From contig JAPYRQ010000011.1 in assembly GCA_029936935.1 (NCBI GenBank), forward strand, positions 1 to 39,726: a DNA stretch of 39,726 nt, given 5' to 3'. Within the stretch, counting starts at the first letter, position 1. Each line of letters starts with the position of its first letter. The notes beneath the pieces are model-generated. The model searched no databases. It had not been told where the DNA came from and saw only the letters and a list, made by a program, of their open reading frames with translations. Below, piece after piece: positions 1,934 through 9,224 of this stretch. A program made the position numbers and the translations under genes. The stretch comes from Dehalococcoidia bacterium. GTDB taxonomy: Bacteria > Chloroflexota > Dehalococcoidia > Lucifugimonadales > UBA1127.

Positions 1934-2716
1934 ATGTCACTCACAGGAGAAGTCGCTCTGGTTACCGGAGCCGCCAACGGGATGGGTCGAGCCATCGCCA
2001 TTGATTTTGCAAAAGAGGGCGCCAGCGTCGTCGCAACCGACGTCAACAAATCGATGCTGGACACGGTCATCGCTGAGATAACGGCTGCAGGCGGGGTGGC
2101 CATCGGGCTGGAAGCGGACATCGGCAAGATGGAATCGATACCAACCATGATTCAGGCCGCCAACGACGCCTTTGGGCCGGTGACCATCCTGGTAAACAAC
2201 GCGGGGATAAACCGTTACGCGCTGCTGTTCGACGTGACCGAGGACGACTGGGACCGCTTCTTCGACGTGAACGCCAAGGGGGCTTTCTTCGCCATGCAGC
2301 AGGTTGCTGCAGAGATGGTTGAGAGAGGCCAGGGCGGACGCATCATCAACATGGGTTCTGTTGCCGGCAAGGGCGCTCCGGGCAACGCCAACGCCGCTTA
2401 CGCCGCCACCAAGGGAGCTATCATCGCGATGACCTATGCAGCTGCCCATCAGCTAGCGCGCCACGACATCACCGTGAATGCCATCTGCCCCGGGCCGATA
2501 CAGACCGACATGGCTGAGACGGCCCTCAAGATGCGATCAGAGGCAACAGGGGTTGAGCTTGAAGAGCTTCGACAGCGCAACATCGATAGTGTGCCGCTGG
2601 GGAGGATGATACCCCCGGAGGATGTTGCAATGATGGCCACATTCCTGGCCGGGCCCGGCGGTCGCAACATCACCGGCCAAACCATCAACGTGGATGCCGG
2701 TCAACGGATGGACTAG
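1934..2716 (+). CDS. SDR family oxidoreductase
   Basis: A 260-residue classical short-chain dehydrogenase/reductase using NAD(P)(H). It has the glycine-rich cofactor motif TGAANGMG near residue 12, the NNAG motif, the catalytic serine in NMGSVAG, and the YAATK (YxxxK) motif. The C-terminal GQTINVDAGQRMD is the usual end of 3-oxoacyl-ACP reductase-like SDRs. I chose the ATG at 1934 because it follows GGGAGGGAG at the right spacing and begins MSLTGEVALVTGAA; the open frame extends further upstream without a ribosome site. The substrate is not predictable. It is followed by a strong terminator. Confidence 0.9.
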   Translation: MSLTGEVALVTGAANGMGRAIAIDFAKEGASVVATDVNKSMLDTVIAEITAAGGVAIGLEADIGKMESIPTMIQAANDAFGPVTILVNNAGINRYALLFDVTEDDWDRFFDVNAKGAFFAMQQVAAEMVERGQGGRIINMGSVAGKGAPGNANAAYAATKGAIIAMTYAAAHQLARHDITVNAICPGPIQTDMAETALKMRSEATGVELEELRQRNIDSVPLGRMIPPEDVAMMATFLAGPGGRNITGQTINVDAGQRMD

Positions 2717-2740
2717 TCAGGGCTATGCGTTGTCAAAACG

Positions 2741-2775
2741 AAGAAGGGCTGGCGATTTGCCAGCCCTTCTTGTTC
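2741..2775 (+). terminator. Strong intrinsic terminator after SDR
   Basis: A perfect 13-bp stem (2741-2753 with 2759-2771) and a 5-nt loop, then GTTCT. It lies 24 bases after the SDR stop codon. Confidence 0.85.
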
Positions 2776-2833
2776 TATCCCAAAATCTTCGGTGCTGAGA
2801 CAACACCTATGTCATAGTCCTAATCGCCACCCT

Positions 2834-2854
2834 GGGTGAAGCGCTAAGCTCTTC
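2834..2854. repeat. Short palindrome at a gene 3' end, diverged copy
   Basis: GGGTGAAGCGCTAAGCTCTTC is an imperfect palindrome right after the stop codon of the minus-strand NHL gene. It shares the GGGTGAAG-x-GCTxx-GC-x-CTTC plan with the elements at 5809-5827, 11546-11561, 13636-13652 and 32269-32286. Confidence 0.5.
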
Positions 2855-3799
2855 CTACCACTTGCGGGTGTATTTGGAGATGCTCCGTAGCTCCTGGGGT
2901 GGGTTCATCTTGGAGCCTCGAATGGTGTAGGAGACCTCACCCACATACACGCTACCCTCGGAGTCCACAGTAATGCCGTGGGGCGCGATGAACTGCCCAG
3001 GGCCGCTGCCCTCCTCCGGGCTGCCGAAGCGACATACCAGCTTGCCGTCCAGGTCGTAGATGCCAACACGGTGGCCAAGCCCCGGGGCGTCGTCCACGCC
3101 TGCGATGCCGTTCAGCTCGCCGATGTAGATGTGATCCTGCCACAGCATCATGGAGTCCGGGCGGTGGATGTTGTTCCACATGGTCTTGAAGTTGCCCTGG
3201 GCGTCAAACACCTGCACGCGATGGGGCTCGCGGTCGACGACGTACACGTTGTCCTTCTCGTCGATGGCGATGTTATGTGGCCGGATGAACTGCCCTGCGT
3301 CGATGCCGGAACTGCCCCAGGAGAACTTGTACTTGCCATCGCCGGTGTAGACGTGGATGCGTGCGTTGCCGTAGCCATCGGAGATGTAGATGTCGCCGTT
3401 GCTGGGCATGATTGCCGCAGAAGTCGGGCGATTGAAGGGCTCACCGCCCCACTTGGGTGACGGGTGGTCGCGCTCGCCTATCTCCATCAGCTTCTCGCCC
3501 GTAGATGAGAACTTCTGGATCGTGTGGATGCCATCGTCGGCGATGAGCAGCGTATCGTCGTAGGCGCAGTACAGCCCGTGGGTGCGGTTGCTGAATTGCC
3601 CCTCGCCAAATGTGCGCAAGAAGTTGCCCTCCTTATCGAACACGACGACCGGGTGCTCACCCCGCGTCAGGAGGTATACGTTGTCCTTGGAGTCCACAGC
3701 CACACCGGGGCATTCCACGTAGGTAATGCCGTCCGGCTCCGTTCCCCAACCTTCTACATACTCATACAAAAAACCGTTCTCACCATAGACCTCAGCCAT
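2855..3799 (-). CDS. NHL repeat beta-propeller protein
   Basis: A 314-residue protein built from NHL-type blades: repeated units of the form GxAVDxxDNVYLL...VVVFDKEGNFLRTFG, for example near residues 31-65, 115-155, 165-200 and 265-300. NHL propellers bind or process ligands; the best-known enzymatic relative is the peptidyl-alpha-hydroxyglycine lyase domain. No signal peptide or membrane segment is visible, so it is probably cytoplasmic. The start ATG follows AAGGGGTGGG. Together with the SMP-30 protein at 26062-26925 it shows that propeller proteins are recurrent here. It may be a lactonase or lyase acting on a product of the local oxidoreductases, but this is inference. It is divergent from the PPOX gene. 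Confidence 0.82.
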   Translation of the reverse strand: MAEVYGENGFLYEYVEGWGTEPDGITYVECPGVAVDSKDNVYLLTRGEHPVVVFDKEGNFLRTFGEGQFSNRTHGLYCAYDDTLLIADDGIHTIQKFSSTGEKLMEIGERDHPSPKWGGEPFNRPTSAAIMPSNGDIYISDGYGNARIHVYTGDGKYKFSWGSSGIDAGQFIRPHNIAIDEKDNVYVVDREPHRVQVFDAQGNFKTMWNNIHRPDSMMLWQDHIYIGELNGIAGVDDAPGLGHRVGIYDLDGKLVCRFGSPEEGSGPGQFIAPHGITVDSEGSVYVGEVSYTIRGSKMNPPQELRSISKYTRKW

Positions 3800-6451: not shown

Positions 6452-7393
6452 CTAGGCCGCTTGGAGGGAGAGCCGGAACTTGCGCCGAGACTGGTCTCGT
6501 TTGGTCATTTCCTGGGCGCTATCGGCCTGTTGATCGGCATTCATCTCGGCAACAAAGGGGAGGTCACTCATCAAACGCCAGATGGGAAGCGCTTCGTTCA
6601 GGTGTATGACCAGGGCGGTGTCTCCCGTCATGGACGGAATCACCTTCTCTACAATCCCATCCGCTTCTTCCATCAGCCATTGGTGCAGCTTCAATACCAT
6701 GGCCGGTTCCATAGGAGCTTCAATAATGAGCTCCGCATCCATCACACGCGTGTCCAGTTCTAAAGGAGTGACCGGCGTAGGCTTATCAATAACATCGGGA
6801 TCGGGGTCTTCATCGCTCTCACTGTCTGAGTTATAGACAGACATGCTCGCCAGTCTTTCGGCGGCGGCGTCAGCTCGTGCTTCGTCACGTGCCTGGCTCA
6901 CAGCACTATGGTTCATCAGCGGGCCAGATTCCGGCGGAGCAGGCTCAGTCGCAGCGGCTTCCGGGGAGGGAGTCTGAATCTCTGTGACCAGCTTTGTTGC
7001 CATAGCCGGGGACACCATGACTCCCCCACGGGCCACATAGTGCATGGCCTGTACAACCATTTCAGTATCTTCGTTCTTCAGCAGGTATCCTCTGGCGCCA
7101 CACTTCAAGGCATTAACCAGATCAGACTCCTGGTCTGAAATGGTATTGATGACCACGTTGGTTCCGGGGACTTCGGCCTGGAGTCGTCTCGTGGCCTCTT
7201 CACCGTTACACTCAGGCATATGCAAGTCCATAAGAATGACATCAGGACGCACAGCCTTCGCCTTTTCAACGGCCTCGTTTCCGTCTGAGGCTTCCTCCAC
7301 AATCTCCAACGAGGGTTCCTCAAAAAGAGCAACCAACAACGCCATCCGATACTTCAGATGGTCATCCACAATCATTACTCTGATTCGACCCAT
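6452..7393 (-). CDS. Response regulator with non-HTH output domain
   Basis: A 313-residue protein with an N-terminal receiver domain (residues about 4-125): the acidic pair D10-D11, phosphoacceptor D56 in ILMDLHMPE, T84 and K106 are all in place, and the receiver is of the NarL/FixJ type. No LuxR-type helix-turn-helix follows. Instead there is an acidic linker (SDSESDEDPDPD, about residues 200-212) and a roughly 70-residue alpha/beta domain (from ELIIEAPMEPAMVLKLHQWL to MSDLPFVAEM) of unknown role, then a basic tail. It therefore probably acts through protein or ligand contacts, not DNA binding. No histidine kinase is next to it. The ATG at 7393 fits the AGAGG site best; an ATG two codons upstream is too close. 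Confidence 0.85.
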   Translation of the reverse strand: MGRIRVMIVDDHLKYRMALLVALFEEPSLEIVEEASDGNEAVEKAKAVRPDVILMDLHMPECNGEEATRRLQAEVPGTNVVINTISDQESDLVNALKCGARGYLLKNEDTEMVVQAMHYVARGGVMVSPAMATKLVTEIQTPSPEAAATEPAPPESGPLMNHSAVSQARDEARADAAAERLASMSVYNSDSESDEDPDPDVIDKPTPVTPLELDTRVMDAELIIEAPMEPAMVLKLHQWLMEEADGIVEKVIPSMTGDTALVIHLNEALPIWRLMSDLPFVAEMNADQQADSAQEMTKRDQSRRKFRLSLQAA

Positions 7394-7450
7394 GGTCATA
7401 TCCTCTTGCGCCCGTGCTATTATCATATTCCACCTATATTGCCGTTAAGT

Positions 7451-7615
7451 CTAGGCAGCTTTACGTTTGGCCTTTGTCTCGTTAAGTCTTCTGGCGATGG
7501 TTTCTGCAGATTGCTCCAAGGTTATGCCGCATTGGAAACACTGCAGATAAATTCCGCAATGGTCTCTATCCAGAAACAGGTCTCCGCGACATTTTGGGCA
7601 AGATTTGAAAAGCAT
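7451..7615 (-). CDS. 54-residue zinc-ribbon protein
   Basis: A small gene with two C-x2-C knuckles, C6-P-K-C9 and C26-F-Q-C29, with the strand-turn pattern of a zinc ribbon between them and a basic helical tail (ARRLNETKAKRKAA). The ATG at 7615 follows GGAGGTGGTG, one of the best ribosome sites in the window. It ends 57 bases before the response regulator start on the same strand, so the two may form a unit. Its 5' end overlaps, antisense, the selenoprotein-like frame that begins here on the other strand. The function is unknown: zinc ribbons of this size bind nucleic acid, protein, or simply metal. Confidence 0.72.
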   Translation of the reverse strand: MLFKSCPKCRGDLFLDRDHCGIYLQCFQCGITLEQSAETIARRLNETKAKRKAA

Positions 7616-8167
7616 CACCACCTCCACTACGACCTCTCAGGCCCTAAGGAAGACCGTAACTGCGTCTTCCCCATTGACCGAGCTGAGGAGTTGGTCAAAG
7701 ACGGAGTCATTGGCAGTTTGGCAGACACCTACTACTCCTTCATGGGTTTCATTCAGGAACCGGAGATCCTTGCGAAGGAAACAGCCCCTGAAGTAGCTCG
7801 GTTGCTAAAGGCTGATGGCGTGGACGCTGTAGTCCTGACCGCTACCTGACCCATCTGCAATCGGTCCGGTGGACTGATAGCAAGGGCGTTTGAAGCAGAA
7901 GGCATCGCCACAGTGCTGGTGATGATGAACAGCGGGCTGGCAGAGGTGCTTGAGCCTCCCCGCGTAGCAAGGGTTCGTTTCCCCTTCGGTCGACCGATGG
8001 GAGAGCCCAGCAATCCTGACCAGAGTCGCGTCATCCTGGAGGACGCCCTGGAGATACTGGAGACCGCCACCAAACCCGGAACGGTGGTACACCTCCCCTA
8101 TCGATGGCGTCGAGAGGACTACGCCCAGATACGCCAGGATCGCGCAAAGGCGAAGGCCACGGCATAA
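7559..8167 (+). CDS. Selenoprotein of the GrdB/PrdB-like reductase family; N-terminus uncertain
   Basis: One continuous frame interrupted only by a TGA at 7847-7849. Reading through it gives LTAT-U-PIC-NRSGGLIARA, a U-x2-C redox motif at the position where, as I recall the family, selenocysteine or cysteine occurs in glycine/sarcosine/betaine and D-proline reductase selenoprotein B relatives. Conserved blocks on both sides support translation of both halves: FPIDRAEELVKDGVIGSLA and YYSFMGF before it, and GTVVHLPYRWRRE near the end. A hairpin with SECIS geometry starts 7 bases after the TGA. The N-terminus is a problem: the first listed ATG has no ribosome site, and the upstream part expected for the family (about 55-60 residues) is absent because the zinc-ribbon gene occupies that DNA on the other strand. 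Either a 5'-truncated gene or an unusually short version. It is probably a dithiol/selenol reductase. Confidence 0.62.
7856..7882 (+). promoter_or_regulatory. SECIS-like hairpin downstream of in-frame UGA
   Basis: TGCAATCGGTCC (7856-7867) pairs with GGACTGATAGCA (7871-7882): eleven pairs including one G-U, a single A-A mismatch, and a GGU apical loop at 7868-7870. The loop begins 18 bases after the UGA. Bacterial SECIS elements are known to lie inside the coding sequence, about 16-37 bases from the UGA to the apical loop, with a G in the loop, and this hairpin fits. Confidence 0.65.
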
Positions 8168-8273: not shown

Positions 8274-9224
8274 ATGAACTTTGGATTTCGTGCGCCAAAC
8301 CGAGGCCCGAACGCAAACCCTGACGCCCTTGCAACACTGGTGCAGAAGGGCGAGGTTATGGGCTTCAACATCGTGTCTGTCAGCGACCATGTCGTCATGC
8401 CGAAAAGCATCGACTCAACATACCCCTACAGTGAATCCGGCGCTTCAATGGGCGGCGCTGAAACCATGGAATTACTGACCATCCTCAGCTACCTTGCCGG
8501 TTTCACATCCAAGATACGGTTGCTCACGTCGGTCATGGTCGTTCCCCATCGCCCGGCAGTGCTGACCGCCAAAATTCTCTCGACCATAGATGTGTTGTCC
8601 AAAGGGCGTGTCATCGTAGGATGCGGCGCAGGCTGGATGCGGGAGGAGTTCGAGGCCATCGAAGCCCATGACTTCGACCGTCGAGGGGCCGTCACTAACG
8701 AGTACATACGCGCCTTCAAGGAACTATGGACCAGCGACGACCCGACATTCGACGGCGAGTTCACCAGCTTCTCAAACATCCACTTTGAGCCGAAGCCCGT
8801 GCAGAAACCTCATCCACCCATCTGGATAGGTGGCGAAAGCAACGTCGCACTACGAAGGGTCGCCCGCCTCGGAGACGCCTGGTACCCCATTGGCATGAAC
8901 CCAACGTATCCGGTGGGCACGGTAGCCCAGATGTCGGAGTCGTTGTCTCGTATCCACGCCTACGCTGAAGAAGCTGGGAGAGACCCCGCCGAGATTGGTG
9001 TGGCTTACAACGTCACGTGGAACAACGACCAGGAAGCCACCACGTTGCCGGACGGTACCAGGCGCAGCTTCACCGGTAACGCAGAGCAGATTGCAGAGGA
9101 CATCAAGGCCTTTGGAGCTATCGGCGTCAAGGACATCCTGTTCGGGTTCGACAAACCGGAGCTTAGTGAGACCCTAGAGAACATGGAGCGGTTTGCCACC
9201 AACGTGATGCCGCTGACCAAGTAA
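8274..9224 (+). CDS. LLM class F420-dependent oxidoreductase
   Basis: A 316-residue member of the luciferase-like monooxygenase superfamily, a TIM-barrel enzyme that uses F420 or reduced FMN. Family signs are the VSDHV(V) strand near residue 36, IRLLTSVMVVPHRPAVLTAK (residues about 83-102), the segment GRVIVGCGAGWMREEFEAI, and KPVQKPHPPIWIGG (about 178-191). The combination GAGWMREEF with PPIWIGG is typical of the TIGR03619-like F420-dependent group. The ATG follows AAGGAGACACTACC. The substrate is unknown; members oxidise alcohols or hydroxylate and desulfonate small organics. A weak -10 box lies upstream, and the gene converges on aroA. Confidence 0.9.
   Translation: MNFGFRAPNRGPNANPDALATLVQKGEVMGFNIVSVSDHVVMPKSIDSTYPYSESGASMGGAETMELLTILSYLAGFTSKIRLLTSVMVVPHRPAVLTAKILSTIDVLSKGRVIVGCGAGWMREEFEAIEAHDFDRRGAVTNEYIRAFKELWTSDDPTFDGEFTSFSNIHFEPKPVQKPHPPIWIGGESNVALRRVARLGDAWYPIGMNPTYPVGTVAQMSESLSRIHAYAEEAGRDPAEIGVAYNVTWNNDQEATTLPDGTRRSFTGNAEQIAEDIKAFGAIGVKDILFGFDKPELSETLENMERFATNVMPLTK

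Follow-up and report, generated by a model that had tools for sequence, protein, structure and literature searches.

The window analyzed here, a 39,726-nucleotide stretch of DNA from a Dehalococcoidia bacterium, carries the 3′ part of a PrdB/GrdB-like selenoprotein gene, in which the selenocysteine (Sec) codon and a SECIS-like hairpin are in place and the front of the gene is gone. It is probably a truncated copy of a real selenoprotein family, recently broken and now inactive. The initial annotation had taken the locus for an apparent selenoprotein gene; that this gene is intact was not borne out, as the N-terminal codons and the region upstream of them are absent in comparison with the nearest relative. 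The host genome is a draft assembly of 2.05 Mb in 105 contigs with a completeness of 94.6%. The features of the locus are listed in Table 1.

Table 1. Features at the selenoprotein locus (positions in the window) and the evidence for each.
Feature	Position	Strand	Evidence
PrdB/GrdB-like selenoprotein gene, 3′ part	7619..8167	+	TIGR04483 5.5e-39; 92% identity over the common part to full-length same-genus protein; junction comparison
In-frame TGA, Sec position of U-P-I-C	7847..7849	+	Column: 70 TGA and 8 Cys in 79 homologues
SECIS-like hairpin	7856..7882	+	MFE and shuffles, synonymous recoding, covariation (n = 23 sequences)
Deletion junction	7616..7618	.	Comparison with locus L074 of same-genus relative
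Zinc-ribbon protein gene, 54 aa	7451..7615	-	Translation; relatives in 35/40 related genomes
Intrinsic terminator, past stop codon	8189..8217	+	13-pair stem and T run
Luciferase-like (LLM) monooxygenase gene	8274..9224	+	PF00296 1e-45; synteny
Response-regulator gene, adjoins zinc-ribbon gene	6452..7426	-	PF00072 5e-24

Family, Sec codon and hairpin

Translation confirmed that one frame runs from 7613 to 8167, as described in the initial annotation, open save for the single TGA and ending with TAA at 8165–8167; around the TGA it reads ...LTAT-U-PICNRSGG.... Both halves had been recognized as GrdB/PrdB-like, and the profile search agreed: the TIGR04483 (PrdB) match (134 bits, residues 3–167) spans both halves and aligns with model positions 72–236 of 238, the Sec falling at the UxxC site, and the PF07355 (GRDB) match (5.4e-11, 42.8 bits against a cut-off of 22, residues 3–78) covers the first. 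The equivalog cut-offs were reached neither for TIGR04483 (300 bits; the window copy scored 134 and the intact relative 179) nor for GrdB (602; 56.9 and 70.9 bits, respectively). By these curated cut-offs, the family would be filed neither as D-proline reductase PrdB nor as glycine reductase GrdB. Searches of the genome for PrdA and GrdA gave no match, and the control genomes gave none either.

The profile search against solved structures gave no relative. When the model of the intact relative was compared structurally (Foldseek, VIA-align 2), nothing closer than a common Rossmann-like arrangement emerged (best Z 8.6, Foldseek E 0.018); the function is thus not readable from these matches. The sequences suggest that intact members may be thiol/selenol redox enzymes, with the chemistry taking place at the UxxC motif on a Rossmann-like core.

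The TGA was proposed to occupy the expected redox Cys/Sec site, and the alignment of 79 homologues from many phyla is in keeping with this, as the column holds TGA in 70, TGC in 7, TGT in 1 and another codon in 1. The Cys homologues (n = 8) include Ktedonobacteria. A homologue was present in 77 of 147 related genomes, nearly all with one internal TGA. The initial annotation had further stated that, if the selenoprotein is real, the host must encode SelA, SelB, SelC and SelD. The genome search located a tRNA-Sec (70.8 bits, anticodon TCA) together with SelA (555 bits), SelB (341 bits) and SelD (380 bits), all above the cut-offs, and these four components make up the complete Sec-decoding trait. 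The SelD of this genome is a selenoprotein itself, with an in-frame TGA in HCAG-U-AAK (L018:1501–2424), an arrangement that is already known.

Folding of the region past the TGA reproduced the predicted hairpin, in which 7856–7867 are paired with 7871–7882 in 11 pairs with one A/A mismatch, closed by a GGU apical loop (7868–7870) 18 nt past the UGA; a weaker lower helix pairs 7850–7852 with 7884–7886. The minimum free energy was −17.9 kcal/mol for 40 nt (z −3.3 against dinucleotide shuffles), and just 6 of 1000 synonymous recodings of the same peptide folded as stably as the native hairpin. Among 23 distinct elements from related genomes, both sides had changed with pairing kept at three positions. 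Nine cells had both-side changes, compared with 4.4 in shuffles, and the score was matched by none of 500 shuffles; this control leaves the relatedness of the sequences in place, and the covariation is thus support rather than proof. Pairing dropped from 88% to 24–42% when the partners were slid, and the hairpin was less stable in the Cys homologues (p 0.0014, n = 8 sequences). The hairpin lies directly past the UGA and has the small apical loop with a guanosine that is known from bacterial SECIS elements (PMC1088965). These sequence comparisons support the prediction that it behaves like a SECIS element. No SECIS element or other family exceeded its cut-off when the region was scanned against Rfam. 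The scan between the TGA and 8189 detected no terminator, and the one found follows the second half of the frame and not the first, as had been noted.

The Sec machinery in the genome, the Sec column in the homologues and the covariation of the hairpin all indicate that the TGA is a Sec codon inherited within the PrdB/GrdB-like UxxC family, and each available test agrees with this assignment. The genome and homologue checks that the initial annotation had named as possible refutations both turned out in its favor.

Probable loss of the 5′ half

Intact close homologues have about 305–336 aa (about 325 is typical), and the window copy has 182 codons. It starts at codon 7619–7621, which corresponds to His144 of an intact relative, and the first 143 codons are missing. 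The nearest relative, a full-length gene in a genome of the same genus (G003), has the same LLM oxidoreductase gene downstream and the same carboxymuconolactone-decarboxylase-type gene upstream. A partial zinc-ribbon gene is divergent from the selenoprotein gene there, and ~700 bp separate its start codon from the His144 codon. In the window, these two codons are just 3 bases apart, which makes the interval ~695 bp shorter than in the relative (L074). Homology to the 5′ half of the intact relative ends at the junction, and the junction sequences of window and relative differ in the way expected of a deletion. The lost stretch encodes the N-terminal helices, core strand 98–103, the first in the Rossmann-like core, and the invariant residues Gly106 and Arg129. 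The frame noted from about 7613 is open, but no gene starts there: 7613–7615 (CAT) is the start codon of the minus-strand zinc-ribbon gene read backwards.

The downstream LLM monooxygenase gene is retained in four same-genus genomes, indicating that the locus is the ancestral one. An ancestral full-length gene would have stood beside the divergent zinc-ribbon gene and the LLM oxidoreductase gene until a deletion of ~700 bp took its 5′ 143 codons together with the region upstream, so that the remaining 182 codons (of about 325) came to lie against the start codon of the zinc-ribbon gene. Such an event would have left the Sec codon and the hairpin intact in the remnant, with a full-length paralogue and the complete Sec machinery kept in the genome.

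The missing 5′ half was searched for across the genome and was present only inside this paralogue on contig C58 (L022, about 2160–3140), which encodes a full-length protein of 326 aa with the same TGA, adjoins a tRNA-Ser gene and is 83% identical to the window copy over the common part. By its profile score and by the Sec/Cys at the first UxxC position, the window copy belongs to the UxxC family in the sense of PF07355. A complete protein of this family has the N-terminal core half, which the C58 paralogue possesses and the window copy lacks; with 143 codons missing, the latter is classed as a truncated copy and not as an intact member. Four same-genus relatives have a single copy only, and the C58 paralogue may thus have been gained.

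The zinc-ribbon protein contains four Cys residues and gave a weak Pfam match, below the cut-off, to the Lar restriction alleviation protein. The response-regulator gene had no DNA match at the corresponding place in the relatives compared (G002–G004). The zinc-ribbon gene of G003 is also cut short (L074:3759–3848), and the adjacent response regulator is absent there; the locus seems to have lost one part in one species and a different part in the other, or else the response regulator seems to be a gain in one of them. Unusual copies were also seen elsewhere in the family. The copy in G050 (L043:1350–1923) has an apparent internal deletion and a frameshift ahead of the YSFMG motif, and it is another apparently broken copy. 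In G097 (L036, oriented frame 937–2062), the C-terminal half of the family is in frame with what resembles the front portion of an ECF-type sigma factor; this may reflect a fusion, a deletion or a chimera in the assembly.

Translation, selection and competing explanations

No ATG with a ribosome-binding site was found ahead of the TGA, the anti-SD pairing there being −0.4 to −1.5 kcal/mol, compared with −11.2 kcal/mol at the start of the intact relative. SD-like sequence upstream of TTG 7691 and GTG 7820 is weak or badly spaced, and the possible SD of TTG 7691 abuts the start codon. The ribosome-binding site of the zinc-ribbon gene (GGAGGTG, SD pairing −16.1 kcal/mol) is the antisense of codons of the selenoprotein remnant. 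The frame upstream of 7613 is open back to ATG 7358, and a fused protein from an upstream start was considered and rejected, as coding signal was lacking in the 7358–7612 frame, which lies opposite the conserved zinc-ribbon gene family. No start is evident in the remnant, and we infer that a working enzyme is probably not made from it.

Comparison of the window copy with G003 gave dN 0.054, dS 1.02 and dN/dS 0.053. Among the changes that could be polarized, the window branch carries 4 nonsynonymous and 18 synonymous ones and the branch of the relative 5 and 18, respectively; a further 6 nonsynonymous and 34 synonymous changes could not be assigned to either branch. The neutral expectation is ~55 nonsynonymous alongside 18 synonymous changes. 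The gene has been under selection for nearly the whole of the window branch, and the codon changes bear no sign of decay; a rough bound for a recent break is 4–8% of the branch. So few nonsynonymous changes mean that the break is recent, that the fragment is still used or that the join is an assembly error. Because the core strand and the invariant residues are lost and an intact paralogue is present, a recent break is favored among the three.

Continued translation of the truncated gene, initiated upstream or at an unconventional codon and giving a short functional Sec protein, would account for the strong purifying selection without relaxation and for the intact state of frame, Sec codon, hairpin and terminator, and it could draw on the SD-like sequence ahead of TTG 7691 and GTG 7820 or on the frame open to ATG 7358. 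It is nevertheless unlikely, given that the strand and the residues Gly106 and Arg129 of the core are gone, that the frame ahead of 7613 is devoid of coding signal and runs opposite a genuine gene family, that the SD candidate at TTG 7691 leaves no spacing and that the genome holds an intact paralogue. The more specific proposal that a non-canonical start yields a functional short Sec protein from the 182-codon remnant, its C-terminal UxxC half working without the N-terminal core half, is less likely again.

The join at 7616 might also be an assembly chimera, the organism itself having a full-length gene here. The draft state of the assembly, the undecayed codon changes and the odd 5′ halves seen in two other related genomes are consistent with such an error, to which we assign a low probability: gene order matches the relative on either side of the join, the bases common at the join are only a few, too short for the usual k-mer overlap, and the missing half is on no contig outside the paralogue, although an incomplete assembly could lack that half. 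An ordinary stop codon or a sequencing error at the TGA, with no selenocysteine involved, is scarcely credible. The truncation of the copy is the sole point in its favor, and it is opposed by the complete Sec machinery, by the TGA and Cys codons that fill the same column in 70 and 8 of the 79 homologues, by the hairpin covariation and by the same TGA in the genome's own paralogue. A recent truncation of a genuine selenoprotein gene is therefore preferred over these alternatives.

Relation to known selenoproteins

PrdB-type UxxC selenoproteins, named 'proline reductase PrdB' in both marine surveys, ranked among the most frequent in the Sargasso Sea (42 Sec genes, PMC1088965) and in GOS (235 Sec genes, alongside 110 Cys genes, PMC2398784); a 2026 review counts TIGR04483/PF07355 among the Sec families (PMC13188914). 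The initial annotation had considered the Sec trait notable for such an organism. This was not supported, since the family is common in these surveys and a tRNA-Sec above the cut-off was found in all five genomes searched within the genus. No paper among those searched linked selenoproteins with SAR202. The present locus provides a genome-resolved example of the PrdB-type selenoproteins, which surveys had shown to be common in the ocean, and it places the Sec trait with its full machinery in a Dehalococcoidia genus. It also carries a caution for selenoprotein scans, as a flawless Sec codon and hairpin, backed by the full machinery, can belong to a gene without its front.

The window copy resembles the marine PrdB-type UxxC selenoproteins (pfam07355) in its Pfam family, in the Sec that opens the UxxC motif, in the SECIS hairpin right past the UGA and in the existence of Cys homologues, and it differs from them in lacking the N-terminal codons. 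The intact relatives studied here have an additional N-terminal helical part of ~85 residues that lies outside the TIGR04483 model. D-proline reductase PrdB is matched over positions 72–236 of the 238 in that model with the Sec at UxxC, whereas the score stays below the equivalog cut-off. The C-terminal part with the UxxC motif is homologous to GrdB, GrdF and GrdH as well, but it scores 57–60 bits against cut-offs of 600–800. The family and its mechanism are already known, and the window contributes a truncated member to it.
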